Of a DNA stretch of 64,000 nt, positions 11,303-64,000 are shown piece after piece. Location of the stretch: assembly GCA_003993805.1 (NCBI GenBank), contig RSEF01000012.1, positions 3,311,239 through 3,375,238 of the forward strand, in the 5' to 3' direction. How positions within the stretch are numbered: the first letter of the stretch is position 1; each line of letters begins with the position of its first letter. Source of the stretch: Himantopus leucocephalus (taxonomy: Eukaryota; Chordata; Aves; Charadriiformes; Recurvirostridae). The position numbers were made by a program, and so were the translations under genes. Under the pieces are notes generated by a model that worked only from the letters and a program-made list of their open reading frames with translations, was not told the DNA's origin and ran no database searches.

Positions 11303-11528
11303 TTACACTTTATGGAGAACTAACGTGCAGTCTTCGTTCTCCTTGAAGAGATTGGACATAACTGGGTCATCTTTGGCCTGTACATTCTTCAAATAATAGT
11401 TTACTATCTTGCCGTCAAGTTTGTACTGATGAGGAATGCTGTCATATGGTTTTAGATCGAGGTCCAGGACAGAAACAGAAAAGGTGAATCTTGATTTGGA
11501 CGTTAGTACCACAGGTCTCTGCTCAGAG
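11303..11528 (-). CDS. IPPK: IPPK exon 13, with stop
   Basis: 226 nt, residues 417-491 and TAA (11305-11303). It encodes SEQRPVV, the motif LDLDLKPYDSIPHQYKLDGK and the terminal CTLVLHKV, identical to the human last residues. Acceptor GTTTTCCAG. Confidence 0.97.
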
Positions 11529-23500: not shown

Positions 23501-26500
23501 GTATTGTTACAACAGACAATCTCCAAGCTCCTGTATCCTTTTTGCAACACAACGCTTTTCTGGAAAAACACTACTTTGCCTATCACTGTACACTATAAAG
23601 CACTGAACCATACAGATTTACTCTTGGGACTGAGTAACAGTGGAGGAAGAGAAAGTGCAACACTCAGGTCCAGGTTAGAAAATCAGAGAGAGAAAAAAAA
23701 ATAAACAGCAGGAAGAAAAAAAAAATAAACAGAGTAAGGTAAGAGAAAATAAAATGCTAGGAAGACAACACTCACATACTGAAAAAGCGTAGAGAAAGAA
23801 GGAAAGACCACACCCAACACAAATTGAAAATGTTTATAGGTAAAGGAGATTGTCACCAACTGAGCAATCTTACCAACTTTGTTTTAGAATAGCTACATAG
23901 TAGGTAGATTTTCCCCCCACACACCAGAAAGGTTGGTTATCTAACAAACTTACATAAGTTGTGTCAGACTAAGAAAGATCAGTTTATTCCTGTAACACAG
24001 GTCTGCTAAGACTACGTACCAAGTCTAATATTCTTCCTCTAGCAGGATTCATTTTCCAGACTGAAGCGGCAATACAAAATACTGCAATATGCAGTAACAC
24101 TTTAAGAAAGAAAAGTCACTACAATGAACATACATTACTACACACTTATTTCAGTAACATACAGTATGACATACTGTTACTCCAGTATGCAAAGCACTAA
24201 CCAAAAAAATACAATCCTTTGGAGCAAGTAGGAAAAGTACAGTTTTTCCAAAGCACTTACACAGCATTTCCATCACTCTATAAAGGCCAGGACAGCACTA
24301 ATTCTTTAAAATGCTTGGCGTATTGTATGGAGTTGTTCCTCTGCATCCTTTTAAGAGAGCCAAAATAAGCTTGGAGTCTCTTCACAACAGGCAATCTTCC
24401 ATTGCTTGAGTCTTACAACAAAACACACACTATGATGCCTGAATAACTTTCCCAATTGCAGTCACTTAGTCTAAACAAGTGTATTTAAGAAAAAATAATT
24501 AATAGGCAAAAAGATATGTGAGCAGGGCACCCACACAGGTTTGCAAAAGGATATTTTGCAGCAGCGTTGGCTCAGTCTCTGCTTCCCAGGAAGGCCAATG
24601 CCCCCATCACCAGTGCTGAACACACCGAGGTCCCTGGGAGAGCACTGCCGGCAGCCCGAGCTCCTTCACCCCTCGAGAGCAGAGGTCAGGGGAGAGCACC
24701 GCTGGGGAAACCCCTGTACCCCTCTACTCTCACCCTGAGCAGACCGCAAACACACTGACTCCATCTTCTCTTACATTTCATCTGTTCCCGGCTGACGAAG
24801 AAGTTTCTTTGCAGATGGGTAACCCCCCACAGCAATTTAAAGCAGTTATAGTATCTGCCTCACCTGGTGAAGTGGGCAACAGCAATTCTGAGCACATACG
24901 ATAGCAAAAACTTCCATCTATATACAGACTTCTGCCCTTTTAATGACAAAACCTTTTCTTTAACCTATACAAATTCTGAATGGTGACAACAAATGTTACA
25001 CCATCTCATACTGTAACAGAAATCTCAACTAATTCCCACTTACAGATCATTCTGACCCTATTTGTGGATGTACACAGTACCCCGGGGCTTTTCTGGTTTT
25101 TGTTTTGTTTTTTCAGTACGTATGTATACACACACAGATATTGGGAAATAAACATTTTGGAAAATCAGGACATTCACTGCTGCTACTACTACAAGGAAAG
25201 ACTCACTAGTGAAAGAGATCAATACAACTTTAAAATTACAAATCAAGCTTATGAGGTGTGCTCACCTCCTTTTAAGAGCAAGTATATTTGATACACTCCA
25301 AACAAGAAACAAAAAGCCGCTAACATGCTACTGGAGCATCACTTTTCAACACTAAAAACCACTAAGATGCTTTTGAAGCACCTGTCATAACTGGCAGTTC
25401 ATTTAGCAAAACACTAACACTCATCAAATCAGTTCTATACAATAAAAAGGCAAAAATTTCATTCATGCGGAAGACTCGCCTACTAAAATCAGCAATATGC
25501 AATTAAAATCATTCCTTGAGTCCTGACACTGGACTTTCTACTCAAGAAATGCAAGCCCCAGAGTTACGCTATTGATTATGACTATTCTTCATTAAAACCC
25601 TTAATTGTAACAATAACATTACAATTTGCAATAACACGACCTCGTTTAACTACTAGATTATCTAGTCCCAAATTCATAACCAAACACCATAAATACAAAG
25701 CAGCGTCCAGACTTCTTTGCCTTTCCAAAGAAGTTAAGCAGGAGAGACCAAGACGCTTTTGTCCACATCTGAATTTCTGTATGCATCTTACTAGTAAATA
25801 TTGTGCTTCAACTGTTTCTTTCAGAGTTGTTTATGTTGGATGAGCTACCATGTCATGCACAGATATCTAACACTTTATATCCTAACTCATCTTGCACTAG
25901 TCAGAACTACAGATTACACCTAATAAACGTTTTCTCCTCTGCAGCTGTCATGTTGCTACATCCAAGTTTGTCCCAACACTCTGATTCTCCAGGAGTTATT
26001 TACAGATCTGAAGATAAAATATTTAGTCTTCCATTCTGCTCCAAGAAAAACTCATCCTTTAAAAAAAAAATCAATCACCAGAATAATTAAATATATTCAA
26101 ATTACATAATCTTCTATTTAGAGAGCAACACCAAAAGGAATTGTATATCATAAAGTCCACACAATCATAATACAAGGCAAATGAAGAACGTTAGAGCTGG
26201 CCACAAGCCAATTCTCCCCAAAACGTAACACTTCCACACTTAACAGGGGAGTTTGCTCTGGTAGTGTGCATTTATCAATCCCGAGTGTGAATTTAGAGAG
26301 ACGCTGTTTAAAACGCTTTCAGAGGTATGCTCCACCACTGCCTGCATCCACAGACTGCCTTTTTGCTGTTACAGCATTAAGAAGAGAAGCGCGTCTGTCT
26401 GGGGCAACTCTGAATGGAATTTTTGCTAATAGTTTCTGAAAAGCAAACTCTTGGTCCTTGATCAGCTACAGCCCACGGGAATACCTACTGCGATCTATCG

Positions 26501-29500
26501 CTATGTTGGGTAGGATTCTCAGCAGTTTTACTAATCTGATTACACAGGGGAAAAAAACATTGAAGAACCTGACCAGTGTTCAAATAGTAACAGAACACCA
26601 TGCCCAGGAGATTTTTCTCCTTGCGTTTCGCTATCCTAATCCAAAAAACTATATGTGTGCCAAAGCAGTCCACAGAGGTATTATCAACTTCAATGCTGTG
26701 GTGGGTAACTGTGAAAAGTCACTTCCTGGCTTCCTTTGCGACTTCATCATACTTTGTCAAATTTTTAAAAACAATTACCGTGCAACAATCTCTTTGGACT
26801 TTAAAGAAAAAAAAGAAGCTGGTACTCAGTATTTTGTTTTCTTAAATGAATGGCAATAGACTGCCTTTTTACTTAAACTTGTGGTTTAATTCTCCCCTGC
26901 TGTATTGAAAAGGGAGATAGGCACTGTTTTCCCTTCTTCCGATCCACTGGGTTTTTCCCTCTTCTCATGAGAATTCTAAACATCATTATCTTGGACTATT
27001 ACAGAAGCACAGGATACATTTTTGAAATCCTGCGACTGTAAGCAGATCAAAACCTTACTTTAATCACACTTTAAAAAAAAAAAGTCTGGTAAAACTAAAG
27101 TAAAATAATAGCAGAAAGGTCATCAAATAACTCGTACGCACACTGTGTTCATGGGTTTTACCGTCCTCTGCTTTCCTCTGATCTACTTTAGATACTTCTC
27201 TTTTATCCCTCATAAACTGGATGCATTTTGCATTCATCTTCCCAATTTAAAGCAAAACACCCTTCCTATACATTTACTTTACATTCATCCTTATTTCTTT
27301 TTTCCTAAAATTAAGCACTTGCCCCAGCTTTCAGTATAGCCATAATGTTTTTTATATTTCTTTCTCATCAGAACTGTCTGCCACTGTACCTTACAAAGCC
27401 ATGGCTCAGAAGCTGCCGTAACTCAAAGCCATGCCCTCTCTCGCAGGTAACACACCCTAAAGACTACTCACGAGGGTGAGGAAATGGCAGGATTTGAACC
27501 TCCTGTCTCTTGTGCTCTCTTCCCCNNNNNNNNNNNNNNNNNNNNNCCCCCCCCCCCCCCCCCCCGCCCCAGCACTGTGTTTATACTTTACTTTTACCCT
27601 TCCACCTTTGATTCTTAATAATTTTTTATCCCTGTCAAAACAAATCTAAGGTAACTCGCTTCAGTTCCTTCTTGAGCAGAAAAACCTTCTGCCACAGAGT
27701 CCAAGAAACTGGTAGACTGTGTCCCACCATGTTCTTTTGGCAACAGACAGGACACTAAAATCACTCACTGCCAAAGGCTATTCTGTGAATATTTCACATC
27801 TCTGTCCAAATTCCATGGCTTTTTAGCTGCTGAATTGGTAGTCAACAGCAGACCTTTATCATGACGCCAGTGCTGTGCTGTTTCTCTGCTGTCCCACCTA
27901 GCAACAGTCAGTAGAACTGTCATTTCTTCCTCAGCATCACTGCACTCTCCTATGTTGATATGCGACATTAATGCTTTCTCCGTTGCCGCAGCTATCCTTA
28001 CACAAAGCCGTACCTTCTACACGCTGCAGCCTTACAGTCTGTCCCGCACAAAGGCCTTCATATCAGCAGCCACTAAGAAGACCTCAAATTTCCTCCTGTT
28101 GCCAAAACTCCTGGAATACAGGCACATTTCAAAGCAACCCCTTGTTCTTACTCCTGTCAGTCACAGTTCTTTCACAGGTTTCCTGTTTCTCCTCAGACTG
28201 GTTTTTATTAGCTTACCTGGGGGCTTTTATCAACAGTACGCGTTGAATCTTACCTTATTCTGGTTTGGGGGGGACTTCAAAAACCGCAGCACCACGCAGC
28301 GCTGAAGAAAGATAGGAAAGAATATGGTTTCATTAGCATTTAAGTATATCATCATTTCTGAACAGCACAGTTGTCTGATTCCCCAATCTACCTCATTTGA
28401 GAAATTCGGGGGTGGGGGGGGTGGGGGGGGGTGTGGCAAAGCAAAATAGCCATTTTAGATGGTTATTTCACTCAACTTAAAATCAAATACATCAATGTCT
28501 GTTCACAGATTTGCCAGCCACTTTAACAAGGCAGCTGCTCTGTGCTTCCACAGTCCCCAAGTGTAACAGGGGAAATACTCCCTTTGCTTATTGCACTGCT
28601 CTGAAAATCTAGTAAAACACACTACCAAACAAACTGAAAAACACCCTATCATTTTTGCGCCAAAGATCTTGAGGAGGGGGGAAGACCCACTTAGATACCA
28701 TCTGCTTACAATATCAGCACAGCATTACAAAGTATTAAGGAGACACTTACCAGTTACCAGCAGTAGCTACACAACTCTACTTATAAACACTAAAGCCTAC
28801 TACTTCTAAACTTCCAAACAGTAAACATATAACTCAGGGACAAAGGCAGCAGGATTCCAAATATTTCACCTTAAAACGACCAAACAAAAACAACAAAAAA
28901 ATCACTAGTTTTTGTCATTTTTACAATTTCCATCAAATTTCGTATCAATTCAAAAACCTTCGTATTTTCAAAGTATACACACTCTAAAAACATTCTCAGC
29001 CTTTATTTTTAAGAGTTCAGATAAAAATATTTTGTAGATGTCCTATGTAAATTAGGCTTTTCTCCTTAAGCCTATTAAGAGAGTGTCTTCCATCACAGAA
29101 GTCACCTGAAGTATCTTTCTCTCAATAAAGTCTTGCTGAAATTAACCATTACACTTGGTAAATAGACTTTGACATTAAAATCAAATTTTGACACAGTATT
29201 AAGGAACCTGCAGCCTCACTAGGCGAGGCAGCACATAGCCCTGCCTCAGATTAGTCAGACTAAATATTTGATCCTCAAGATATTTACTCCCACTGATGTA
29301 CTTCAGCCTGTTCAGGTAAGACATGGATAAAAACAATTGGGCACCGCAGTACATAGAGGCAAACAGCTGTTTTCTGGAGTTATCTCTTAGTCACTCAACG
29401 TCTCCATTTGAACCTTTCCTAGACACACCAAAAAGGACTACTTTCTGTTTAAAGCACTAGCAAAAAAGGACTAACACTCGCTGACAAAGATGATGCAGAC

Positions 29501-32500
29501 AAAATGTCATAGTTACACTTCAGGTTTATAGATTTGAAGCTTTTTCCCTACCAAATGACTTGCCATTAAAAAGCCTCCCATAGCATGACAGCACCAGATA
29601 TATTCCATATTTCAGGGTTGAAAGCTATCTCTGGACAGTGCTGAGTGGGAGAGAGCTGCAGTTATCTTTAATTACTAACATGTAGAGAAAGAGCAGGAGG
29701 AGAAAAGCAAAACAGATGACAATATGTAATCCAAACTACTAACAAAACAAGATCCGGATTCAGGCATTCCTAGTGAAACCCAGAAACAGCCCCTTCAGTA
29801 TCTAAAAAATCTCAAGCCAGCATAAATCTCATAGTTCACCTATGTCTGAAAAACTCTCTCAGGGAAAAGGGTAGTTTGCTGAATTTTGATTCATCTCATC
29901 TTGCAAGATCTAAACAGCATGAGTGTTACAACAACAAACTAGATAAATTGAACACTAATTATAATCACCTGGATTTGACAAGATTGCTGCTTGACATGTA
30001 ACTCTTACTCCCAGTATGACCTAATAGAGCTCAGGTCTGATGAGCCTGTACGCTCTGTGTATGCGCTACATTATCTTTACAGGGTTTCAACTGTTTGGAT
30101 CCCTTGCTTTACATATTCATAAACAAGTGGATCAGCAGTGAAGTAATCTGATCATCCCTCCTCATCAATTCAGTAACTTGATTCTGTAGTATTTCAAGGG
30201 TGTTGTAGATGTTTATCTATTAATCAGTTCCCAGTCAACAAGCTTACAACTACTCTGGAAAATCCAATTGCTCTCACAGGACTCACTACAGTATTTGTTC
30301 ATTACCAAATCATTTCTGAAAAGGCATGCCAGGATAAAATGACCAAAACTATATATGGCAAAAGAAGAAAACACTGCTTCTCTCTTAAAGATGTCAAAAG
30401 GAAATAGAGCAAAGTTCAAACAAAACTTTTCAGTCACAGATGCACTTCAACCAGTCAGCCTGCACTATTAGATGATTGGAGTTAAAAAACAAAACAAAAC
30501 AAAACCAACCCCGCTTTTTTCTTTATTTTTTTTTTATTGGGGGGGGGGGAGTTTTCATCTATATCTGTTCTTTAGTGCTGAATTGCATACAGTTACACAA
30601 ATACACTGCCACATTACAAAGGTTAACCCATCAGATGTCAAAGATGCCACCTGCTTCAGAACTATTACTACTGAAAATATTGGTCTGCATTTTTCATGCT
30701 ATTGCATTACTGATTCATTTGACTGATTCTTTACTTGGAAATACTGTGGGTGGTTGTTACCATCAGGGTTTTTGTCAGTTATCTTAAATGCCTTAGATTT
30801 TTTTATATTTACAGATTGAACATCAAAGATGTAACATGCTTATCTGCATGCAAATGAATGGCCCAAATCCAGAACAGATTTCTTAAGAGGTTGTTGTTGC
30901 TCCTTAGCTCTTTGAGAATCAGATCAACTAGATCCTAACGCTCCATAAATTCCATTCTCTACATGCACCTCTGTAAACCCTTCCACTGCTTAACACCGCT
31001 TCCATACACGCACTATTACCATAAGACTGTTTAGTTAATTGGACAATAGTCCCATACAGACAAAAAAATGGGGGGAAAAAAAGTCCGGCTGCAAAATCAA
31101 GCAGAGAAAAAAAAAAGAAACTATGCATGGAGGTAGGCAAAATGTAACACGTGAAACATTAAGAGGCTTCACATCTTTTGAAGAAGCCAGACAAGCTAGA
31201 AGAACAGTGAATTCAAAGGAAGAATTTTATTTTTTTTTAAAAATCCGGCAGCCCTGTCTCTGCAAGTACGTTCAGTATCCAGTTAGTGACAACAAACAAA
31301 AAAGTCATCAGAATATCAAACATAACTGCTCTTACTCTCCAAATAGAGAACAATTCTCACATGAGAGCACAGCAGTTTGGTAACAGGTAACAAACAACGT
31401 TCTTACTGGCATGCAGGGCCATACTAGGGCTACAACAATTTCCAGTTGTTACAGAAAACTCAAAACAACTTCTAGCAACAAGGACAGCGAAACTTGTGTC
31501 TCTCAAAACACATTCACAGTCACTGGGCTGCTGAGATGATGTAATCGGGAGCCTATGTTCCAGAGAAGCACTATCTCGAGCCACAGCACTTTGAGGCTCC
31601 AGCCTTGAGGTCCCACCAAGAAAGACAAACGCTTCTTTAGCACCCTATTATGCAACAATTGTTTGGGTTAAATCATAGCTGAAAGTCAATGGTTGCCAAT
31701 AAGGAGATAAGAAGCTGTGAGAGGGGCTGCAAAAACGTACTCAAAGAAGTCACTGGCATCACAGAAACACAGGGATGCCTACACATAACTCTTGTCCTAA
31801 CATATCTTGGGAAAAAAATAGTTTGCTGGTCTTAGTCCCCAAGAAGGTTATCTGGAAGAATTTTTTCTTCTCCAAAGCAGTTACTACAGCTATTATTTTA
31901 ATCTTACCCAGTGAAATCCAAAAACAAAGTAATCCTTGGTAGTTAGGCCAAAATATGACTGGCATCAATCCAGGTACTTTGGATTAGGCAGTAGCATTAT
32001 GAAACCAGGATAAATGCTTACATTTATTTCTTTACAGCTTGGTGTTTGATATTAGCCTTATATTTTTCCAAAATGTCTTCTACACTTCATTGTCATAAGA
32101 TAGAGCTACCATGCAGGCCTCCTGAACTCGAGAGTCTTCACAAATTAAACACACTTGGGGCAAATCTATAATTCTTGATAGAATTTCTTCAGAGAAAAAC
32201 CTCATTTGCATCACTGAGGGTTTTTTCAGGTTTCTGTCTCTTGCTGCGTTATTAACAAAATCTGCTTAAGAGCTGATGCCAGTGAAAGAAATAGGAAAGT
32301 TTGTATAAAAACAAGCTCAAATGCTAGTAAAATTATTCAGAAGTACAGAAAGATGTGTATTTTCCTTCTGCTGTTACCACCTCAGCTCACATGGTTTTAA
32401 AATAAGCGTCTGTACGAAAACATGAAGAATTAGCCTGTCCAAACAAAAAGCCTGGGAAACATCACTTCAGCTTCTGCTTTTCCAAATAAGCAGGTTCACA

Positions 32501-35500
32501 TCCTTTGTTATTACTCTATTATTATTAAACAGCATGTGTTAAGTGTTTTTGTCTAGAGGCAAAGCATTACTTTAATATCTAGTTCTGCAACTGCCCAGTA
32601 TAACTAGAAAAGATCCTTATCTAGTTGATTACCAACTTGTGTTCACATATGCAAGATCTACTTGTAGAAACCAAGGCACTTTGGGAAGCAACTTTTTAAG
32701 TCCCAAAAGGAAATCCACCCCTCTTTCCCACCTCCCTCATCTCTCTCACTCCACACCATCTCATAAATTGTGGTATCTGAAAACCCACCAGTATTTTTGT
32801 AAGCACTATACACAATTTTACATCACAAAGCTACCCACCTGTCTACTATACTCTGTGGTCAATATATTTATTTTGAAAAGGCATGCAATATACAAACAGA
32901 ACAACAAAACCCACATTTGTTTTAAAGTTGTCCATATAAATGTCACAACTTTCCAATTGTAAACAGCATGAGGGAAAACACTCTAAAAGACTGTAACAAA
33001 TCCTTCCCTGCAATTATTACTATACTATTTCTTGCAACCAGTTACACACACCACCATGAACTACTGCCTAAGGAGACAAAGATACAAAGTCAACTACTTT
33101 TAGACAGAATGGTGCCTGAAAAGGCTCTTGAATTTCTTTATACAGTATAATTCACTGTGTTTTGCTGAATCTAAAGATGTATCAAGAACTTACCAAACAC
33201 AGCTCTAAGTATGCCAAACCTTCTATCACTATTGGAGTTATTCAAAGCCACCTCATCGTAGTAGATTTATGACAGCATATAGCAATGACACCTACAAAAA
33301 GTGCACTCTATCTAGACTTCAATTAAAGGGAAAGGGGTTAAATTACACCAAACTGCTATTCAAGCCCTACTTCAATGTAGTGACATGCAAATACTAACTA
33401 ACACTAGTTTCAATGGTACTAAATATGAACTACGAAACTCTTTTGCTATTAAGTTATTTCTGCAGTAGCACATTGAAGCTGCACACAGTATATGCCAACA
33501 AAAAAAAATTAGTTTGACATTTTTTATTCCAAATTTACATTCCACAATCCCTTCAATTCCCACTCTAGTTTGAGGGGTTTTAACAGAAAACAATGGTTTC
33601 TATTCAGAAAATACATTTTTTGGGAAGGAGGCAAATGGACGTCTCAGAAAAGACAGCTGCACAGTTCTCAGAAGGAACTCCCCTCTAATAAAATTCAGTA
33701 AAAACATGCCCACCACACTATCCGGGCACTTCAATCAAAGCTTACCTTTACAATATTCAACATTTTTACAGGTCTCCTCATCCAGGGCATCAGTGTGCTG
33801 TGCAATATGGAGGGATGTGGGAGATGAAAACAAGCTAAGCACTAGAAAATTTTGCAGCTTTTGAATGAAGCACACATAGTAATATTGTATACAAATGTTT
33901 TCCAACCCAGTTTTGTTCTGTATAAGGTGGATAAGATCACACAAAACAAAGTGAGGAAAGCTCCATTTCCTGCCAGCGGAGAGGAAGTTTAGCAATTGCT
34001 CACACAAAGTGCAAGGAAGCATTCAAAAATCGAAACAATACTCTTATTTAGCACAGAAGTCCCTTAAGAACAATCTTTTTATTTCTTTACATGAATAAAG
34101 AATTTCTGGCACAGCACCTGGCTTGACACCATTCAAGTATCTTAAACCATTATTTGGAAGCAAACACCACCACGATACTTATTTTCTTTAGCATAGAGCT
34201 TACAGCTTGCATCAGATTTCAGGTACTCATGCCGCATTTTTTCCTGCTTGGTTATGATCTAGATTCCCATGACAGTTAAGTTTCACTTTACAGTGAAGCT
34301 TTGCATAACCTTGCAATATGCAGATGGTACCAATTCCAAGCGAGTTTTATGATCGCACTAGCCATGAGTGAGAAGGAAATGTTTGCCCTTCAGCTAAGCC
34401 ACCTACTCACAGTACCTGAAACGATATCAACCGATACACCCACAGGTGCTAGGTGGAAACACATACCAGAGAGAGAACAGAATGAATAAACCTATTGACG
34501 CCTGGCCCTCAGCATACATTACTACAGTCTGCGTAACACGGTAGATGTCCCTGACATCCTAGCTGGTAAAAACAAGCAAGAAAAAAAACCCAGTCCTTAA
34601 CACTGAAGAGTGTATCAAATACCTCATCCATCTGTCAAACAGGTGAGTTATACCAACAAGAACACGAAAACATGCACTAAGCTTCCTTCCTTTAAACTGC
34701 TTTAAACCTCCGCCTATCAGCAACATACACTTCCCAGCATTAAGCTGCCCAGTCAGCTTCTGGTATGTTGGGGAAACAAGGCGTTTCAAGAAAATATTAA
34801 TAGGGAGGGGAGGAAATAAAAAGTCAAAGCCGTAAGAGGGATTAGAATAAAGCCAAGTAATAAAATGGGAGAGTCAGAACAAGTTAATATTTCCAAGCGT
34901 GCTAAACACCTCAGCTAGAAGAAACCTAAGCAAGTCTTGGGCAACTGTCTGCAATCGAATGCTGTGTCTCTGTTCCTTCCCAAGCAAAACCAGGAGGCCA
35001 GAACGTGGCTATTGTATATCTCAGAAATAGTACACTGAGGCAAAGAAAAGAGCCACTGAAAGACTGGAAGGGAGGAAAGAACACCTAAGGAGTGAATGAT
35101 ATAGGCTATCAAGACTGACCACTCCTATATAGCTCACAAGTCAGCCAGCTTACTTCCACCAAAGCAACCAACCCACTACTGCTGTTGACTGAGGGACGGT
35201 AACCCATGCACAGCACAGACAAGGCAAAATGTACTCTTATGAACTCCACCATCACTGCATTTACCAAACACTTATAACAGACCCAAAAAAAAAAGCTTTT
35301 TCAATAACAACTTGATCTCATCAACTGCAAAAAGTAACTCAGTTGAGTCTGAGCTAGCACAGAACCTAAACAGAAAAAGCAAGACCGTTTTTAATCAAGG
35401 CTAGCTACCTCATGAGCTTGTCCGAAAAAGTGGGATTTGTTTTACATTTTCACTGCCTATAGCCTTCAGCATTCTCAAAAATCACTCAAAAAAAAGAAAG

Positions 35501-38500
35501 AAACCCCAGGCATAAAGCAGAGTGAACTTCCAAAGAAAGTTACCAGAAGACAAGTCTGCTCCAACACTCTTCTATTAGCAAAATAAGAAGACATCTCTGA
35601 AAAAAGTATTCTGGGGTGAAAAAGGAGAGTGGTGGTGCTGCTGCTATAGTGAAAGTATTGCTCTCGCATTACATTTGAGTGTTAGACCTAAGATTCGCAG
35701 TGTTTTTGTCTCCCATCTCCTTCCACACGTATGCTACGTTTTTCCATCTGCATCTACAGAACCTAAGGCACTAACACAGTAAGAAAAGTTTTAATTGCTG
35801 CCTTTCTGTTCTTTCTCCTCTCTACGTTCAGCCCTGCTACCCAATACCACCGTCCCCTTCATTTTATGAAAGATATTACTACACTGTACTGCATTCAGAG
35901 CATCCTTTCAGTGCAGAAACCTGGCAAAGCCAAGGAAAAAGTAAATTTAACTACACTTGTGTAATATGGAATTGAAATCCCAATATAGAATTAAGATTCT
36001 ATGTAGATGTAGATGTTGACTCAAGCTGTTGACCTTTTTTTCGGGTCAAAAAAACCCCAAAGGCTTTGCAGCTAATCCATAGAACTGGAAGTGCTTCCAA
36101 CTTTTAATTCTTCATTTATAGTAAAAGCTTTGTAAATTGTACTCAAGTAGACTTAGGCCAACTAGTTATGACATCTACAATCGCAGTTGTACCAGTTTAG
36201 CCAAAGAACCAAATACAAACAAATACAAAACTGTCTTTCTTTTTCTCCAGTGAACATAGTTGTGTATTTAAATATCAGTTAAGCAAGGTTAACACAAGGA
36301 AACGTACAGTTTCACACAGGTGCCACAAAGGGTCCCAAATTCCAACTCAAAGTGGTGACTGCCTCCTGTTCCTAAAAATTTAATTGTTCTTTACAGCAAG
36401 GCAGACGTCTCTTCATTTCTTTTCTGCTGATGACACCACCCTGGTCACATATTTGGCTTTTCAACTGTTTTTTCAACTGCCTGCTTCAGTAAATTTGGGA
36501 AGAAGCTCCTCTACTTGCTTACAATAAATAAATTTTTTAAAAAAGCAAAAAAATCAATAGACTTAGGAAAGAAGGAGCAAAGCAATATGTTGTTTAGTCA
36601 TCAGTCTGTTTTCTTGTCCTTTTTCTAAGTAGGCAAAGGGTGTGTAGCTGCGGGTTCTTTGCTAGACAATGTTTAGATATGCATACCCCCAACAGAACAC
36701 AATGCTGAAGAGACCAGGTCAAAGAAATGCCCTACAAACTAGCAAAAAAGCAGAAGAGGTTTTAATGGCCCTTAATCCCCAAAGTTCACGCTGGAATCTT
36801 GGTCCAACTCATTCACATGTTAAGTTTTGCTTCCTCCAGAAAATTCTACAAAACCAGATGCAAAACCCCTCCCCATATTACAACACATAGCCTTGGTGAA
36901 TCTTTCCGATACATCCAGAGCCTGAAATGCATCAGAAATAAGAATTAGCATAGGTTTGGAATTTAAATAGAATAATCTCCTCAAGGATACAAAAATGTTA
37001 AGTCTTACCAAAACTATGTTCTTCCTGTTAGTTAAATAAAATTCAATAAATATAAGTTGCATTTTCCCTTTTCTGATAATTTCTTACTGTGAAAGAACCA
37101 AGACACCATAACTCAGACATATTTTAAATCAGAGCAATATTCAGAGAAGGCCATTGTTAATAAGCTGTTGTATTTATACCCACAAGGAACAGCAGCTAGG
37201 TTTTCAGTATGTCTCCCCTACCTGAAGACTTTAATATAGGAATCTGCAGTCTGTTCTATATTTCCTGGAAATTGAGACATTCATAGACGTTAATTCACTA
37301 TTCCACAGATGTTAAGAAAAAAAAAATGAACAGAACACAACTGAACAAAATCTGCTTTACAGTCCGGGATCTGGAATTTTTCAGGAATGACTTAGTTTTG
37401 GGGGCAATGCTTTTCTTAACACTAATTTCAATAGGTGACAGATTCAGCCAACTCCATATAGAACAGCAATGGAAGAAGAAACAGGACACACAGGTTTTTG
37501 AACTTGTACGAAATAACATCATCAGAAAAAGCACCTTAAGAAGATTCTCTCAACAAGACAGCAATTAATAATCAGCATCCCTCCTGTTCTGCCAAACAAG
37601 ACCAAATAGGAAAGCTGCAGCTAGCTAGTAATTCTGACAATACGCTTTTCACTCTTTCAGCAAAAACCCCTGCATCTAAACAGAATCTTGTTAGTGGTCC
37701 TCTCTCAAAGTAAGTTCATTACAACAAAATTTTGAGTAAGGACAATTTGTCGTTATTCTTAAAAACGAACGAACCAACCACAGGAAAACTATTTCATATT
37801 GCAAAAGCACTATTAGGAATAATTATCTAACCTGATTTGACACAAAGCGGCCCCTCATAAGTAGAATTATTTTATTTCACAAACCAAAACCAAATCCATT
37901 CAAATATTCAGACGTATTTTAAAATGAAGCATTTGGTTACAATATCCCAACATGCAAAAAATGAAAAAAGGTAGAAATAAACTGCAGTAACGCACAGGAG
38001 GAATGGGCATACTTCATCTCATAAAGCAAAAACTAGAGATTGCAAGCATATGTTTCAAGAGTGAAAGGAAACATAAGTCTCTATTTCTAGAGTTGCTTAC
38101 ACTACTTTCTACAACTATTTCCTGATACCTTTTGAAATTGTTAAGTGCCTCTGTAAGACCAAACAGCTGATTAAAATGCTGAACTACAAATGAGGATTTC
38201 CAGCGCACTTCTGAAAAACTAGGTATCTCCACCATAAAAAGAATCATCAGCTCACAGGAAGGTAACTGTTCTACAGCAGTTCCTCTGAACCCTCTCTACT
38301 GCTCAAGAGTAGAGAGGAGGAGGGAAAGCGTGGTTTAGCCTTCTTTTTAAATCAGAAGCCAGATTTGATTCAGAAGGAGCGACAGTCCAATAAAAATGCA
38401 GGGATTAAGAAGCATCCTTTCTAAACAACCTGGCTGCCTGCAATAGGGCTTGGTTTGGGTTTTGTAGAGCTGTACCTGTACTGAAACACTTCATGCATCT

Positions 38501-41500
38501 CTGAGATGGCAACTAGAACAAGTAACCAGACAATCACAGTATAATGTGAAGGGTGGCAAGTAAGTTATTTGAAGAGGATGCTATGATTCAATCAAATATT
38601 CAAAATTGCAACCAATGGACAAGGGTCATAGAGACACTGCCTGAATGAACCTCCAATTTTTGTATACTTCAGAGTGATCTTTCCAAATGTCTCAAGCACT
38701 GTCTTCAGGAACGGAACTGAGTTGCCAGTTGTATTTCTCACAGAAATCAATGAGGTAGGAAAGCTGTCTTTGTTCCTTATCACTAGAAGCCACTTCAGCA
38801 GGCTGCAAGACTATACAAAGGCTTTTTAACTGTAATTCAGCTTCAATTTGGATTAACTTAATCACAGCTACAATAAAAAACCAACAGGAAAAATTTTATC
38901 AACTGAGAAATTTGTACCATAATATTGTATGTCTTCCAGAATTTTAGATTCACCAGAACTGAGAAAAAAAAANNNNNNNNNNNNNNNNNNNNNNNNNNNN
39001 NNNNNNNNNNNNNNNNNNNNNNNNNNNNNNNNNNNNNNNNNNNNNNNNNNNNNNNNNNNNNNNNNNNNNNNNAAAAAAAAAGCCATGAAAGCAGAAGTTT
39101 GAGTATGCACCAAGCAAGCAAGTGGGCAGCTCCAGAGATAACAATGGTAACTGGAAGTGCTCAGCAGGCATTCCATCTTTATTCATCAGCTCACTTTCTA
39201 AATACTGGAGAACTAATTAAAGTAACTCTGTAAAACTATCACTGTAAGAAGAGATGTGCTGAGTAGACCATGCCCTGCCTAAGTCCTCTCTTCTTCACTG
39301 CGCGAATAAGGAACAGAGATGCACTTGCAGTGATTTCAGACACTCATTTCAGTGCGGACTTCCACAGGCTGTAGGAGCACAGGCACACCGGGAGACTCTC
39401 GTCACTGCTGCATTCTGCAGGATTAATAACTGGCAAGAAGAAAGAGCACGTCAAGCAGTACTTTACAATACTTTCACTGAAACAGAGCATGTTCCACAGA
39501 ACGCAAACCTTTGTCTATATGCCACCATTCAAAGGCACAGGAAAAAACGCTTGCATGTTGCCTGCGTCTACGGCTTATCAGCTCATCACTAGCAGAGCTA
39601 TTTGTTGGGCATGTGACTTTTCTATGACCAAGTTTTTAATTTTGATGCTGTGCTAACTCTGGATTAACAGTGCATTACAGTCATATCTTAAAGGGCAAGA
39701 TACAGGGAATGGAGCAAACCAAAGAAATAAGAGCACCGTGACCTGATGACGCACATTTTGTTCCTCTGACTCTCCAGCCTCAATCCAGCCACACTCCACA
39801 CAACCATGAACAAGAGCGTCCACCCAAGCTGCCCGCTCACCCCAGCCCACACACCCTGTGCTTGATACATGAACTTGCACAGTATGTTATCGGTGCTTCG
39901 CAAGCAGCCCAAAAGGCAGGAGTTGAAACAAAACTCCCTGGATCTTACTTCATAAAGGGCAAGGAAGCTCATGCCCTCTTCTCCAGAAGGACAGAGATTA
40001 TTTTTTTATGTTGCCATTTTGTTGTTTAAAACTTCTCAGATCTTCCAGAAGAAGCAAGGAAGAGAGGTTCACACCTAGAGAGGTAGGCACCCACTTCCAC
40101 CCCACATTCCAAAATACCACTACGCACCAAAGGGAGAACATAGAAACAACGGCACACACGCAGTTCTGCCCCAGCCTCTCTTCTCACAACCCCGACACTT
40201 GTGTCTGAGCATCCATTCATGTCTCCCTTGACACAACCAAATCACTGTCCCTCCCACTAGTATTTATACACAAAAACCATGAACTGAAGAGATACAGCAT
40301 GAAGCAAGAACAGTAAAACAAAATTCACTTAGTTATGCTGTTCTGTTCACACAAACCTGAGAATGACTGACATCAGATCACAAGAACAATGACTAATCAT
40401 ACAAGTATGTCCTGTTTGTAAGAGGCACAAAGTAACAATTAGCATCTAAACAGTATTTTATACGCTCCAATTTTACAAGAGTTCGACATCAGTAGACACA
40501 ATTCTAAGACATAAGTTTTGCTGTTTCAAAGCTGTCCATAAAGGAAAAATCGCATCTATTTCACTTTCACTTGATCTTGAAGTTTTAGCATCTTGGTAAA
40601 AAGAGAACTGACGCACTCAGCAACTATTCTGAATCTCTGGCAAACTTCCTCACTTTCCATGTATTTAAAGATATCACAATTACATTGTTATTAATCCATT
40701 ACGCATTCTGATCCCTATCAAACAGTGACTGAAATTTTTTCAAACTGTCTTTTTCAAAGCTAAAATTTAGACAGGAAACAAAATCATACACTTTCTTCTC
40801 GTAGCAAAAATATCTTTTAAAAATATTCTATATAAAGAACGAAGAAACAAGAGCCATAGAAGTTCCCCCCCCTAAAGCCTAGAGATTTCCAGCATTTTCT
40901 CAGCCTTGCTAACATTTTTTTACAGCTAGCTAATGTTTACGATCCAGAAAAGAGACATTAAAAGAATATAGTATTTCCAGTCATTCACTTAGACATTATT
41001 AAAAAAGAAGAATAAGGTTTTCAGAATTCAACTCTTATTGCAGACAAAGCCTACATTTTATCATTTTAGCTTTACTAGTTTTAGATCTACAAAGCATCAA
41101 GAATGTTCTGAGGCAAATCCATGCTAGAATTTAAACTGAAATACAAATAAATTCACACAAGTACTGTTTAGAAGACAAATAATCTCACTCAAGGGACGCA
41201 TACAGTTAAAATCTAGATCCCAATCTACTAAGTAAATAACATACATACAAGTGGGGCAAGAATAGTGTGACAGCAGTCACATGAACACATGCCTTTTTAA
41301 CTGATATAGAATATACCGAATCTATTTTACTATTTTTTTTTCTTAATTTAAAATAAAACCAAAAAAAATCCAACCAAAAAAACGCCCAGCGGGTAAATTG
41401 AGGCAGGGAGGTTGGCGCAGAGCCTGCGGCCGGGCCGGGAACCGGGACTGCCCCGGAGCCCCAGTCCAGCACTGCAGCAAGGGCTTAAACTCTCCCATGG

Positions 41501-42132
41501 ACAGACTGTCAGTGACAAAAGGGAAAAATATTCCTTCGCCAGATTTCCTTTTTCTGTCACAGAAACACACGCGTTACGATAGGAAAGGGAAATCTTCAGT
41601 GCTTCTCCTCACAACTCCCGCTTCCAGACGGTAGCTGTCTGCTCATCAGCTTCCACCACCCCTGCGGCCCAACCCGCACCAGCCGTGAGGGAGAACCACG
41701 GAGAACGCCCGCTCATCTCTCCCCGGGGACGGGCACGGTTTCCCCGCACGCTCCCGTCGGCTCCACGGCTCCGGGAGAGCGAGCGGCGGGGCCGTGAGGC
41801 CGCTCCCGCCGCGGGCGAGGCCCCAGCACCTGGAGGCCCCGCCGGGGGCGGCACCGCGCCGGGCCGTGCCGCGCCGCCGGGGACCCCCCGCCCGCCGGTA
41901 CGGTCCGGCCCGTGGAGACCCCGGCGCCGCCCCCGGCCCTGAGGGAGCGCGGGGGCGGCGCGCGGCGCCCCCTCACGCGGGCCCGGCGGGGCGGGGGAGG
42001 GGCGGCCGCGCGCCGCCGGCCGTTCCCCGCCGCAGCCCGCCCCACACACACCTGGCAGTGGGAGACGACGAGGCTCTGATTGCCTTCCCCGTGGTACTTC
42101 CATTCATTCTCATCCATCTTCTCCACTTCCAT
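11303..42132 (-). CDS. IPPK: Inositol-pentakisphosphate 2-kinase (IPPK/IPK1), complete, 13 coding exons
   Basis: IPPK phosphorylates the 2-position of Ins(1,3,4,5,6)P5 to make InsP6 (phytate), in cytosol and nucleus. InsP6 serves mRNA export, endocytosis and pyrophosphate synthesis. Seen: 13 exons with GT-AG borders and matching phases give 1476 nt, which is 491 codons plus TAA, the length I recall for human IPPK. Landmarks: MDENEWKYHGEGN (residues 6-18, glycine-rich nucleotide-binding loop), GENYVHHG (68-75), SRCDKDMDTLSGYAMCLPN (99-117), EIKPKCGFIPF (136-146, family signature), the Cys/His cluster KVCRYCMHQH (157-166, equivalent to the zinc site of plant IPK1), NKQRMHFALKSLLQEAQNN (189-207), LKPFFFPSNG, LDLDLKPY (438-445) and C-terminal CTLVLHKV. 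The start MEVEKMDENEW matches human MEEGKMDENEW. The least conserved part is residues about 275-312. No frameshift or missing motif was found. Confidence 0.97.
12586..12665 (-). CDS. IPPK: IPPK exon 12
   Basis: 80 nt, residues 391-416 plus 2 nt, VQQYRIAMTAKDCSIMIAL then SPCLQDE. Acceptor TGTTGTATAG, donor ATG|GTAAGA. Confidence 0.95.
13159..13261 (-). CDS. IPPK: IPPK exon 11
   Basis: 103 nt, residues 356-390, STLQIDGPYNEAFYEKLLDL then STEDDGTVAFALTK. Acceptor AATTTATTTAG, donor AAG|GTACTT. Confidence 0.95.
14700..14850 (-). CDS. IPPK: IPPK exon 10
   Basis: 151 nt, residues 306-355 plus 2 nt, LPRGCLLYKTLQAQMLDMLD through VEQYLEEFPEE. Acceptor TTCTTCTAG, donor GAG|GTAAGA. Confidence 0.95.
15931..16210 (-). 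CDS. IPPK: IPPK exon 9 (largest, with variable linker)
   Basis: 280 nt, residues 213-305 plus 1 nt. It begins NGELIYGCKD, contains LKPFFFPSNGLVSGPHCTR, and ends in the poorly conserved linker FNKELVRN. Acceptor TCATTTGCAG. The donor is ATG|GTAAGA. A second GT 7 nt further on (GAG|GTAATT) would break the frame with exon 10. Confidence 0.94.
17181..17253 (-). CDS. IPPK: IPPK exon 8
   Basis: 73 nt, residues 188-212, NKQRMHFALKSLLQEAQNN then LKIFK, essentially identical to human. Acceptor TTCCCCTAG, donor AAG|GTAAAC. Confidence 0.96.
17691..17749 (-). CDS. IPPK: IPPK exon 7
   Basis: 59 nt, residues 169-187 plus 2 nt, VANGKWKRPSKYCPLDLFS. Acceptor TTCAACAG, donor AGG|GTAAGG. Human has VATGKWKQISKYCPLDLYS. 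Confidence 0.94.
18386..18475 (-). CDS. IPPK: IPPK exon 6 (EIKPKCG signature and Cys/His cluster)
   Basis: 90 nt, residues 139-168, PKCGFIPFSSHV through KVCRYCMHQHLK. Acceptor TTTGTTTTAG, donor AAG|GTAATT. The C-x2-C-x-H-x-H spacing fits the zinc-binding site known in plant IPK1. Zinc binding in this protein is inferred. Confidence 0.96.
18898..19019 (-). CDS. IPPK: IPPK exon 5
   Basis: 122 nt, residues 98-138, SRCDKDMDTLSGYAMCLPN through RPILCIEIK. Acceptor TTTCCCCAG, donor AAG|GTATTG. A strong G-run tract lies about 160 nt upstream in the pre-mRNA. Confidence 0.97.
19020..21769 (-). other. IPPK: IPPK intron 4
   Basis: 2.75 kb. It contains a GC-richer patch around 20900-21320, whose overlapping open frames resemble nothing known, and a tract of G runs on the sense strand at 19180-19211. 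No gene recognised. Confidence 0.75.
19180..19211 (-). repeat. IPPK: G-run tract with G-quadruplex potential in IPPK intron 4
   Basis: The plus strand shows C runs of 5 to 7, so the IPPK pre-mRNA carries at least four G tracts within about 32 nt. This fits the usual G-quadruplex pattern. It ends about 160 nt upstream of the exon 5 acceptor. Confidence 0.7.
21770..21836 (-). CDS. IPPK: IPPK exon 4
   Basis: 67 nt, residues 76-97 plus 1 nt, EIIQLPLDFVRQLCLKIQ then PERP. Acceptor TTAATAG, donor CAG|GTAAGT. Human has EVVQLPLEFVKQLCLKIQ. Confidence 0.94.
22627..22722 (-). CDS. IPPK: IPPK exon 3
   Basis: 96 nt, residues 44-75, TSEEILHHLQNIVDFG to GENYVHHG. Acceptor TGTCTTCCAG, donor GGG|GTAAAT. 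Phase 0 at both ends. Confidence 0.95.
27470..27525 (-). mobile_element. Possible MIR-like (tRNA-derived) SINE fragment
   Basis: The run GGCAGGATTTGAACCTCCTG, with a following TCTTGTGCTCTCTTCC, resembles the tRNA-related part of MIR SINEs (box-B-like GGTTCAAATCC on the minus strand). It does not fold as a full tRNA: the T stem has a mismatch and no matching acceptor stem was found. Only a short piece remains before the gap. Confidence 0.35.
27526..27546. other. Assembly gap of 21 N inside a C homopolymer
   Basis: CCCC precedes the gap, and 19 C (27547-27565) then GCCCC follow it. The true tract length is unknown. Confidence 0.98.
28254..28301 (-). CDS. IPPK: IPPK exon 2 (48 nt)
   Basis: Very short in-frame exon (16 codons, residues 28-43) encoding RCVVLRFLKSPPNQNK, against human RCVVLRFLKFPPNRKK. 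Acceptor TTTCTTCAG, donor AAG|GTAAGA. Skipping it would keep the frame but remove a strand of the kinase core. Confidence 0.95.
28408..28436 (+). repeat. G-tract cluster (C-rich in IPPK pre-mRNA) near exon 2
   Basis: G runs of 5, 8 and 9 separated by single T, then TGTGG. It lies 107 nt upstream of the exon 2 acceptor in transcription order. On the IPPK sense strand it reads as C tracts. Confidence 0.75.
30485..30551 (+). repeat. Low-complexity A-rich, T-rich and G-run patch
   Basis: Repeated CAAAA units, a 10-T run and then 11 G (30540-30550), all within 70 nt of IPPK intron 1. Confidence 0.75.
38973..39072. other. Assembly gap of 100 N inside a poly-A context
   Basis: Exactly 100 N, the usual placeholder for a gap of unknown size. 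It is flanked by A runs on both sides within IPPK intron 1. Confidence 0.98.
42052..42132 (-). CDS. IPPK: IPPK coding exon 1
   Basis: 81 nt, residues 1-27, from the ATG at 42132 to SHCQ. The donor reads CAG|GTGTGT. It carries the GEGN loop. The ATG sits in GGGCATGG, an acceptable Kozak context with G at +4. A second in-frame Met at codon 6 also exists in human. Confidence 0.93.
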
Positions 42133-53400: not shown

Positions 53401-53956
53401 ACAATAACCCAGCACTACTACCCCAAAATACTTCAGTATTTCCAAGCACTAAGTTATCACTAAAGGAAACAACTGCTGTAAAAAATGCAAGTATGCTAAA
53501 ACATATTAGCAGAGGGTATAGAAAAAAACGTATATGGCTTTTTTAGGATGCTGTCCGATATGTTTCACCCCCCTTCCTTAGTTAACAATGCTGATACCAG
53601 ATCTCAGTATGCTCAACTATGGATCCTTGTGAAGTGATACTGGAACAGGATTTTTTGCAAAAGTAACTTCCAGGTAATTTAAAATACTATTGCCGCTAAT
53701 AACAGAATACAAAAGGTACATTGCAGTATAGTGTTACACTCGCCAATCTGCTTCGAAAACAAAAGAGCTGTAATAGGCTGGGGAAAAAATGCCTCATAAA
53801 AGCTCTGGATTAATCTTCCCTTTTTAATCCAGTGCTGGTTACCACTCCAATTCTTACGTTCATTGTCAAGACATGGTGTCTGCCAATAAACAAGCATTAA
53901 TCTCTTCTCATTTCGTGTCAATACAAAGGTTTAGCAAATCAGCAAATTTAATGGGG

Positions 53957-54282
53957 AAAGATTATTTGAAGAATATTCTTTGAAGAGGAACCACAGAAAG
54001 GTAAGAAGGGAGGAGTAGAGAGCAACAAGAAGTTGTCTTGTATGTGCTTTTCTTCCAGTTTCTAGTCACATAAACTGAGATAGATACACAGTCTACCCAG
54101 GATCACAGCTAAAAAGNTGAAAGGTTATTTGAAGAGAAGATTTCTTTGAAGAGAAAGCACAGAAAGGTAAGAAGGGAGGAGGAGAGAGCAACAAGAAGTT
54201 GACTTGTACGTGCTTTTCTTCCAGTTTCTAGTCACATGAACTGAGATAGATACACAGTCTACCCAGGATCACAGCTAAAAAG
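53957..54282 (+). repeat. About 160-bp direct duplication joined by a single N
   Basis: Copy one (53957-54116) and copy two (54120-54282) share long identical runs (for example GTGCTTTTCTTCCAGTTTCT and GATACACAGTCTACCCAGGA). About eight or nine base changes and small indels separate them, mostly near the left end. An N at 54117 marks the junction. It is either an assembly overlap left unmerged or a true recent tandem duplication. Confidence 0.85.
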
Positions 54283-60831: not shown

Positions 60832-60837
60832 TTTATT
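60832..60837 (-). terminator. Poly(A) signal AATAAA (minus strand), candidate distal end of the BTG-like gene
   Basis: The plus strand reads TTTATT, about 600 nt after the BTG-like stop. Use is inferred. Confidence 0.35.
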
Positions 60838-61438: not shown

Positions 61439-61791
61439 TTAACTAGAAACTGTCATCATGTTGTAATTCTTAGAAGGGCTGGATCTGCCAGTTCTCCACT
61501 CCTCCTTGCAGCTGGCCCTGCTCTCCAGCGGTTTGGTCGTCTTCCCACCAGGCTGGGGACTTTCATAAAGGACACAGATGGACCCATCTTCACCTATGCG
61601 ATAGGACACTTCGAAAGGGTCGACCCAAAGAGTTAATTCGCTGGGTAAGAGCTGGAAGAGTCTCTCGTGGCTCAGTCCAATCATCCCCGCTGCCTTTCCT
61701 ATCAAGGGGTCCATCTTATGGTTGATCCTAATGCAGCGGTACCCGGAGCCTTTGGAGGGCACCAGGGGGAACCAGTGGTGCTTGTAGTGCT
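61439..61791 (-). CDS. BTG1/2-like exon 2, with stop
   Basis: 353 nt, residues 40-156 and TAA (61441-61439). It carries box A, box B and the BTG1/2-type C-terminal box. Confidence 0.95.
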
Positions 61792-62033
61792 CTGCGGGAG
61801 GGAACAAAGAGGAGCTTTACCGCGGCCCCGCAGCCCTCCAGCCTCGCCGAGGCTGCGCTCCGCCGGGCCGGACCGGGAAGGGGAGGGGAGCCCCCCCCCC
61901 CGCCGCCCCGCTCACCGCGCAGCGCCTCCTGCAGGCACTCCCGGAAGCACCGCAGCTGCTCCTCGCCGATACCGCCGGCGGCCCGCAGGAGGCGGGTGAC
62001 GAACGCCGCCGCCGTGGAGATCTCGGTCCTCAT
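61439..62033 (-). CDS. BTG1/BTG2-like antiproliferative protein (BTG/TOB family), complete, 2 exons
   Basis: BTG/TOB proteins bind the CAF1 (CNOT7/8) deadenylase of CCR4-NOT, promote mRNA decay and restrain cell division. BTG1 and BTG2 also bind PRMT1. Seen: exons 62033-61916 and 61791-61439 give 156 codons plus TAA. The N-terminal helix region [17 protein letters not shown] is followed by [19 protein letters not shown]. Box A is at 42-62 (YKHHWFP...[11 protein letters not shown]), and [16 protein letters not shown] leads to box B ([20 protein letters not shown], 88-107). An LxxLL (LFQLL) lies at 84-88. The tail SCKEEW...[16 protein letters not shown] matches box C of BTG1/BTG2 and excludes BTG3, BTG4 and TOB. 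It is neither canonical BTG1 nor BTG2: the N-terminus differs from both, box B has DPFE where both have DPYE, and W138 replaces the L of BTG1. I judge it a third BTG1/2-class paralogue and assign no symbol. Confidence 0.93.
61792..61915 (-). other. Very short intron of the BTG1/2-like gene (124 nt)
   Basis: GTGAGC donor and CTCCCGCAG acceptor, at the conserved BTG-family position just before EHYKHHW. The sense strand is G-rich near the donor, including an 11-G run (61891-61901 on the plus strand reads C). Confidence 0.9.
61916..62033 (-). CDS. BTG1/2-like exon 1
   Basis: 118 nt, residues 1-39 plus 1 nt. The ATG at 62033 lies in GGCCATGAGG (G at -3). The frame stays open upstream to 62369, but that extension is proline/arginine-rich CpG-island translation without family similarity. 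MRTEIS lines up with BTG-family starts, so this Met is chosen. Donor CGCG|GTGAGC. Confidence 0.92.
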
Positions 62034-62149
62034 GGCCGCCCCGGCCGGCGCGCACCTCCCCGCCGCCGCCGCCCCGGCCCGCTGCCAGCGCCGCCGCGCC
62101 CGCCCCGGCCTCCGCCGCCTCCGGCCAATGGCGGCGCCGCGCCACAACA

Positions 62150-62155
62150 ACGTCA
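62150..62155 (-). promoter_or_regulatory. CRE-like site TGACGT
   Basis: The minus strand reads GTGACGTT, one strong CRE half-site, about 120 nt upstream of the BTG-like ATG. Binding by CREB/ATF is inferred. Confidence 0.4.
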
Positions 62156-62303
62156 CACGGCGGCGCCCCGCCCCAGTCCCCCGCAGAGGCGGGCGGGCCG
62201 AGACCCCATTGGCGGCGGCGGGCGCGGGGCGGGGCGAGCTCGGCGACTGCGGGCGGCCATTGGGCCGCCGGACGGGCCGGGCCGTGTTTGTTTTGTTGGC
62301 GGA

Positions 62304-62333
62304 GGGGCGGGGCCTGCCCGCGAGGGGCGGGGC
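62304..62333 (+). promoter_or_regulatory. Two GC boxes (Sp1-type) spaced 20 bp apart
   Basis: GGGGCGGGGC occurs at 62304-62313 and again at 62324-62333, inside a short imperfect repeat. Confidence 0.55.
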
Positions 62334-62450
62334 CACCGAGGGACTCCCTCCGTGAGTAACGGCGCCCACGGGGACACCTTGGCTCGTCCCCTTCCCGCTC
62401 CGCAGCCTGAGCGGGACCTGTGAAGACCTCGCCGTCTGATTTTAGACGCG

Positions 62451-64000
62451 CGGCGCCAGGGCCAAGACACGGCAAAGCAGCGGAGAGGCTTTAAGGACAT
62501 CCCCCTCCCTGTTCAGCCACGCGCAAAAACAGCTTTCAGGACGAGCGAGGCAAGAAACTACATGTCATCTTTGGGAAAAGAGGTGGTGCAGAAAGCATCG
62601 GTTTTCTTCCAAAAGCCTGTTGACCTGCAAGTGTTTGGAATTCGGCACACTTGGAAACAGGCGGAGGAACTGGGTAAACCGAGTTCTGCCCAGTGCGTGA
62701 ACCTCTCCGTTAAATGTTGCGAGATGTCCTACGGCCAAAGGACACCCCTTTGGCCTGTATTTAGAGGACTGCATTGCATCTTTTAAGCGTGGTACCAGCC
62801 TGGAAAGATTTTTTTGTTTGAAATAAGTACAAGCGTAACGCTTATGCGAGCGCAAACCGAGCGGTACGCACACTGCCCAGGCACCCCACGGGTCACACCG
62901 AGGGAACGCGAGCAGCTGGGCTCAGAGCGGCACTCCTGTGGGGCAGAAAGGTTGGAGCTGTGGAAACGTTGGGTTGAACAGTCTGTGCCAGCACAAACTT
63001 CGTATTATTCTGATGAATAGAGTACATGGCTTGTTTGAGACAAAGAACTTTGCTGATGACTCGTTAGCATCATCACTGCTGTACCTCCGAGTTTGAGGAA
63101 TAACCACAATTCATCTCTTTACAATAAAAATTTTGTCTTGACAACAGTTGTCCTGGCAAGGCAGTTTGCCCCAGAGCTCCAAACCAATAGTTCTGTCCCT
63201 AAACCAACAGACTCACTTCCTCCACACCACTGCCAAGTGTCAGCTGAGTTTCACAACAGGGGCAGCGACACAGATGCTGACACAGCTGTGACCCCCCCAT
63301 CCTCAGCATAGTGACAAGATTCTTCAGCTGTTTTAAAGCTTTTAAAAGAGCAGCTGTGTTCAGTATAGCCAGGATTCCTGGAGTTAACAAAAAAGCTTTG
63401 TCTCTAGTTCAAAGACTAAGGTCAGGACTTTATCACCAGACTGCCTGCAGCCGTAACTGAACGCACTTCCCAAAAAGCAGTCTTCTTTCAGAAGTTCATG
63501 CAATACCCCAACCATTTTTTCCCTCCTTGTCTTATTTAAATACATCCTCTTGCTTCACTGGTTGTGTCTCTTAAACCCACTTTAGGAAAATTATGATTAG
63601 AATTATGTTGATTTCTTGACACTGTTAGTTAGGTTCTAAGACCTTATATTCTCCTTTGTTAAAACAGAGCTAACCACTCCTTTATTCTTCTCCAAGGCCT
63701 GCCATGTGCCAGAGAAGCTCTTCAGAGAGACCTCACCTTTGAAGAAACTAAATAATATCTTTGTTTTCCCAACCGCACATCTTAATCCTTTTCCCCTTTC
63801 TTGCCTGTCAGCTGTAAGAACCTGACATCACCTCTAGTTCACCAGCTGCAAAAGCCATACCCAGGGAGTTAAGAGGAGGAAAAAACTTTGTCTGCAGACC
63901 TTTAAAAATTAAATCCAGTTTTACTGCTATTTAGAGATTACCAGCTAACATCCATTCAACAACAGAAGTGTGAAGAAGAGACTCAGTCAGGCTAGTGTTT
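62451..64000. other. Upstream flank of the BTG1/2-like gene, nothing recognised
   Basis: CpG content falls off after about 62500. Open frames up to about 100 codons on either strand show no known motif. No tRNA, snoRNA or repeat was recognised. A divergent non-coding transcript from the CpG island is possible but nothing in the sequence proves it. Confidence 0.6.

Follow-up and report, generated by a model that had tools for sequence, protein, structure and literature searches.

The window examined here, a stretch of 64,000 nucleotides of the Himantopus leucocephalus genome, carries a third gene of the BTG1/BTG2 class. Very probably this gene is a third ohnologue of BTG1 and BTG2 that has been kept from shark to birds but, among the proteins listed, not in mammals, and which, judging by its motifs, would act as BTG1 and BTG2 do. 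The case for its origin is built on a protein tree and on the position of the gene in this genome, while 2R as the cause is taken from the published history of the SLRP clusters. The window corresponds to C46:3311239-3375238 in an assembly that comprises 316 contigs and totals 1.1085 Gb.

An earlier, sequence-only reading had placed a 156-codon gene at 61439..62033, next to IPPK and CENPP. Its coordinates proved exact, its frame is intact and both neighbours were found, CENPP by its last exon. The features of the locus, in window coordinates, are the following.

62033-61439, minus strand: third BTG gene, two exons, 156 codons, intact, with the ATG at 62033
61916..62033, minus strand: coding part of exon 1, 39 codons and one base
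61792..61915, minus strand: phase-1 GT-AG intron of 124 bases
61439..61791, minus strand: exon 2, which encodes boxes A to C and the SPSKNYNMM tail, with TAA at 61441-61439
61750..62499, unstranded: CpG island across the 5' end and promoter (G+C 0.70-0.84 and CpG observed/expected 0.75-1.12 over three 250-base steps)
60832..60837, minus strand: AATAAA, candidate distal poly(A) signal (signal sequence alone)
starting at 61170, minus strand: second AATAAA, candidate signal (signal sequence alone)
11306..42132, minus strand: IPPK, 13 exon matches, the next gene found and on the same strand as the third BTG gene
7929..8108, plus strand: open frame containing the final exon of CENPP, a gene tail to tail with IPPK (Pfam CENP-P at E 2e-07, covering positions 144-177 of the 177 in the profile)

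IPPK was located with the human sequence as a probe; 13 of the 16 rows obtained were plausible and the other three had E values of at least 2.5. One of the four open frames offered from this stretch matched Pfam (Ins_P5_2-kin, E 7.4e-06) and corresponds to the last IPPK exon. The adjacency of IPPK and the third BTG gene is described for this one bird. An Rfam search of the 64,000-nucleotide window yielded no match, and positions 53956-54282 hold two tandem copies of a 166-base unit that are 93% matching.

Five GT-AG pairs would keep the frame of the third BTG gene, and the one chosen is alone in using the single GTGAG donor present; it is also the splice used by BTG1 and BTG2. In all three genes of this genome the intron splits the same Glu codon before HYKHHWF in phase 1, as expected for the class. 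The Pfam BTG profile (PF07742) matches residues 1-115 of the protein with an E value of 2.4e-42, and this N-terminal APRO domain makes the protein a member of the BTG/Tob family. The boxes keep their LWVD and GSGYRC stretches, and boxC, as defined in the account of BTG2 given in PMC4773420, is present as DGSIC, which assigns the protein to the BTG1/BTG2 class.

Relatives were collected by searching 5.8 billion proteins with the window protein (best 120 of 1362 matches listed), with human BTG2 (best 120 of 1453) and with a 25-row profile of the third clade described below (best 120 of 2050). Among the matches listed, the closest is a penguin protein named BTG1, 98% identical to the window protein, and the others come from birds, turtles, squamates, caecilian, frogs, newt, coelacanth, bowfin, gar, teleosts, sturgeon and catshark. 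Of those with a name, the majority are called BTG1 or BTG1-like and one BTG2; several bear only a domain name or the label "hypothetical". In a FastTree phylogeny of the 265 distinct listed proteins and the window protein, every row fell into one of three clades: a third clade of 95 rows (support 0.99), BTG1 with 51 (0.85) and BTG2 with 120 (0.96). A set of 86 rows, hand-picked from the 265 so as to spread over lineages, gave IQ-TREE supports of 100/99 for the third clade, 100/98 for BTG2 and 97/80 for BTG1, and among 200 bootstrap trees a single branch separated each of these groups from all other rows in 100, 100 and 96% of cases, respectively. Such a tree had been proposed in the sequence-only reading as its own check, and the window protein lies within the third clade, alongside proteins from birds, reptiles, amphibians and fish, and outside both BTG1 and BTG2.

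The names of most listed orthologues, and a BTG1-like tail, would favour the view that the window gene is simply the BTG1, or else the BTG2, of this bird. A BTG family search of the genome argues strongly against this. It gave seven places, read as six genes, namely Tob1, Tob2, BTG1 and a BTG3/BTG4-like gene (both on contig C1), BTG2 (C151) and the third gene (C46). The BTG1 exons on C1 are 96 and 98% identical to bird BTG1 (98% for exon 2) and exon 2 of the gene on C151 is 95% identical to bird BTG2, so that both names are already taken by other genes and the BTG1 or BTG2 identity of the window gene is refuted. Moreover, AU tests on the 86-row set rejected trees in which the third-clade bird rows were joined to bird BTG1 (p 9.9e-11) or to bird BTG2 (p 6.2e-42). 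We consider this identity to be practically out of the question.

A duplicate of BTG1 or BTG2 specific to birds or sauropsids, arising by transposition or segmental copying, deserves separate consideration, since the shared intron phase and the similar protein would be expected of a recent segmental copy too. The intron argues against retroposition, however, and the third clade includes orthologues from frogs, newt, caecilian, coelacanth, gar, sturgeon, teleosts and catshark. Within its own clade it shares 76% identity even with the coelacanth protein, but 68 and 66% with bird BTG1 and BTG2, respectively. A recent local origin of this kind is therefore highly improbable. The catshark member branches first within the third clade, and shark or ray rows also occur in BTG1 and BTG2, such that the split predates living jawed vertebrates. 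The third gene has diverged over time to the same order as its sister genes, as judged by protein identities: for the third gene, BTG1 and BTG2, respectively, these are 76, 78 and 81% between bird and coelacanth, 73, 76 and 70% between bird and gar, and 71, 76 and 76% between bird and shark.

Compared with BTG1, the third protein has the same APRO domain, boxes A to C, a similar tail and the same intron site and phase, but it starts with MRTEI, whereas BTG1 has a longer leader beginning MHP, and its gene lies in a separate clade, on another contig and beside a different SLRP cluster. With BTG2 (TIS21/PC3) it shares the APRO domain, the DGSIC boxC, the intron and the closest solved structures; it differs in its clade, in its SLRP cluster and in a tail that exceeds that of most BTG2 rows by one residue. 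The SPSKNYNMM tail had been regarded as a mark of BTG1 and BTG2 together; it is indeed common to BTG1, but the five commonest BTG2 forms, accounting for 99 of the 120 rows, are one residue shorter. Box B had also been thought to distinguish the gene by DPFE in place of the DPYE of BTG1 and BTG2, and this did not survive the comparison. DPFE occurs in 67 of the 95 third-clade rows (26 have DPYE) but also in 8 of 51 BTG1 rows, 10 of 120 BTG2 rows and Tob1, and was discarded as a diagnostic mark. T3, T13 and R139 serve better, occurring in 85, 81 and 94%, respectively, of the third-clade rows with a residue at that position, and each in less than 20% of BTG1 rows and less than 20% of BTG2 rows.

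BoxC is intact as DGSIC in 78 of the 95 third-clade rows. The other 17 comprise three frame-disturbed "low quality" models, five rows from quail and waterfowl, six from characin, knifefish and catfish, and three from other birds. The galloanserine rows (P0032, P0037, P0039, P0048, P0066 and P0072, from quail and waterfowl) are more divergent, with NGSIC or NGFIC as boxC in five of the six and altered C-terminal tails in several, and the gene may be under relaxed constraint in these birds.

The position of the three genes in this genome carries the argument for their common origin. A decorin probe matched 102 places, of which many belong to leucine-rich-repeat proteins of other kinds; OGN, DCN and FMOD were named by direct identity, and ASPN, OMD, ECM2, PRELP and KERA by match class and order, with no place assigned to EPYC or OPTC. 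C46 carries, in this order, OGN (3205632), OMD-like (3228218), ASPN-like exons (3249013-3259686), ECM2-like exons (3281691-3284732), CENPP, IPPK and the third BTG gene (3372677-3373271), which is 88 kb from ECM2. DCN exons (59-80% identity) occur at C1:54159735-54194940, with BTG1 358 kb away, and FMOD (67% identical to human FMOD) at C151:2302820, with BTG2 17 kb away and a PRELP-like gene further on. In its BTG2, FMOD and PRELP-like genes the C151 arrangement agrees with the published human order BTG2, FMOD, PRELP, OPTC, ATP2B4 (PMC11250378). Thus, three BTG genes lie in paralogous blocks beside three different SLRP clusters, and each is transcribed toward its own cluster, the nearest SLRP genes being ECM2 for the third gene, DCN for BTG1 and FMOD for BTG2.

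A 2025 study, in its account of these clusters, presents cluster A (ecm2, aspn, omd, ogn), B (ecmX, bgn), C (dcn1, lum, kera, epyc) and D (fmod, prelp, optc) as products of 2R (PMC11917481). Since the three BTG genes adjoin different clusters of this set, the third gene is best read as an ohnologue. A single ancestral BTG gene would have stood beside an ancestral SLRP cluster, and the whole block would have been copied in 2R to leave BTG1 by the DCN cluster (C), BTG2 by the FMOD cluster (D) and the third gene by the ECM2/ASPN/OMD/OGN cluster (A). Among the best candidates listed in the BTG family search of the genome, no further BTG1/2-class place fitted cluster B. The proposal in the sequence-only reading of an old paralogue from a vertebrate duplication is upheld by the tree and by the separate SLRP block, with the amendment that the gene has been kept widely in jawed vertebrates. 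Tob1 (C122:12046914) has a leucine-rich-repeat gene about 0.4 Mb away (C122:12456527). In human, CHAD lies near TOB1, and the linkage of BTG/Tob genes to SLRP-like genes may be older than 2R.

The relationships among the three clades were examined with Tob1, Tob2 and one BTG3/BTG4-like row as outgroups, and again in a second set from which six long or odd rows were dropped (P0024, P0041, P0062, P0092, P0232 and P0239). The best rooted trees pair BTG2 with the third clade (98/82 in the first set and 99/79 in the second), but AU tests did not reject, at 0.05, either a pairing of BTG1 with BTG2 (p 0.289 and 0.30) or one of BTG1 with the third clade (p 0.075 and 0.361), and the BTG1 rows do not hold together once the long-branch Tob and BTG3 outgroups are added. 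The SLRP cluster scheme [(A,B),(C,D)], which predicts that BTG1 groups with BTG2, is thus neither recovered nor rejected in the BTG trees. That the published cluster order is not recovered, and that the AU tests leave more than one root standing, would be compatible with an old tandem or segmental duplicate which arose before jawed vertebrates and not by 2R. A piecemeal origin, however, would hardly set three genes beside three different SLRP clusters with each facing its own, and we regard it as improbable relative to the ohnologue reading.

The fate of the third gene in mammals and fish was considered from the same listed proteins. No mammal occurs among the named third-clade rows (best 120 per search, the rows being 90% clusters named after one member), although a much faster-evolving mammal copy could rank below the best 120 listed. 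The six unnamed "lgn" rows of the clade lie nearest to newt (P0040), birds (P0042), frog (P0053), snake (P0059 and P0112) and coelacanth (P0062). Mammals are well represented in the database: eleven named mammal rows fall in BTG1, and the BTG2 rows among the listed matches include echidna, wombat and possum. The published gene table for human 9q22 gives NOL8, CENPP, OGN, OMD, ASPN, ECM2, IPPK, BICD2 and ANKRD19P and no BTG gene (PMC4657880), in agreement with the earlier statement that BICD2 follows IPPK there and that a BTG gene is absent. A loss in placental mammals, as had been suggested, fits this human list but appears too narrow; because all the echidna and marsupial BTG rows listed lie in BTG1 or BTG2, the loss seems to be mammal-wide and, on the listed proteins, the third gene was probably lost in mammals as a whole.

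In the bird, a partial BICD2 probe gave no match at E 1e-3 in the 100 kb past the right end of the window (C46:3375239-3475238, including 24,044 bases of N), and none of ten long open frames beyond the third BTG gene matched Pfam at E 0.01. A difficulty for a simple 2R account is that the ATP2B quartet is reported on human 1, 3, 12 and X (PMC8851675), whereas cluster A maps to 9q22, which would require the human 9q22 block to have been relocated. Fish ogn genes are described as linked to kctd6, slmap and abhd6 (PMC6293640). In human these three are genes of 3p, so the 9q22 block may have moved. One tentative scenario, which we hold to be possible yet rather unlikely, is a single loss, in the stem lineage of mammals, of a working third deadenylation adaptor, in the course of a chromosome break next to IPPK that separated the IPPK-SLRP block from its former neighbour. 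Were this single stem loss correct, mammals would run on two BTG1/2-class adaptors and many other jawed vertebrates on three.

Ray-finned names in the third clade include bowfin, gar, sturgeon, tarpon, herring-like, carp, characin, knifefish, catfish, pike-like, salmon and bonytongue types. Acanthomorph (spiny-rayed) fish are absent from the listed third-clade rows (best 120 per search), and a second, independent loss in this group is possible. Two third-clade rows occur in one species for Astyanax (P0078/P0079) and Brachyhypopomus (P0243/P0247), one Brachyhypopomus row having DGSTC in boxC, and these pairs may be copies that survive from the genome duplication of teleosts. The third gene and BTG2 are on contigs of equal length in tarpon, milkfish and Hoplias (P0071/P0214, P0056/P0238 and P0087/P0098), and probably on one chromosome; in gar the two contigs differ in length.

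Some indication of function comes from work on BTG2, whose APRO domain is described as binding CAF1 and whose DGSIC boxC is needed both for binding the first RRM of PABPC1 and for stimulated deadenylation, the contact with PABPC1 being required for proliferation control (PMC4773420). In the same account, PABPC1 binding and stimulation of deadenylation are properties of the BTG1 APRO domain as well but not of the Tob1 one, and boxC is absent from Tob (PMC4773420). By its conserved motifs the third BTG protein probably bridges PABPC1 and CAF1 in the manner of BTG1 and BTG2: the APRO domain would bind the CAF1 (CNOT7/8) deadenylase, boxC would bind the first RRM of PABPC1, and the bridge so formed would shorten poly(A) tails and restrain proliferation. 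A first AlphaFold model, from 25 rows, was too poor (mean pLDDT 55.3) and was not used. A second, of the penguin protein, was of moderate quality (mean pLDDT 68.5, with the C-terminal 38 residues below 50); its best match was solved BTG2 (E 1.9e-12, TM 0.80 by target length and 0.61 by query), followed by Tob1, and all ten matches at E <= 0.001 were BTG2, Tob1 or FOG-3 chains.

The third gene is already catalogued, mostly under the misleading name BTG1 or BTG1-like among the listed records. The catalogue names si:dkey-42i9.4 and MGC80563 ("novel protein of BTG family") belong to third-clade rows from coelacanth (P0036) and Xenopus laevis (P0045), and are catalogue names only. Xenopus xBtg-x, a BTG-family frog gene, may be the same gene. 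In the open-licence literature we found no paper on BTG1 and BTG2 as ohnologues or on the phylogeny of BTG1-4 in relation to genome duplication, and the BTG family goes unmentioned in the main text of the SLRP-evolution and paralogon papers checked.

BTG1 and BTG2 restrain proliferation, and work on mouse and human assumes two such genes. As most listed records label the third gene BTG1 or BTG1-like, expression and knockout studies in birds, reptiles, frogs and fish can confuse two genes. With the present reading, the SLRP paralogon gains the BTG family, and the third gene becomes an example of an ohnologue that mammals have apparently lost.
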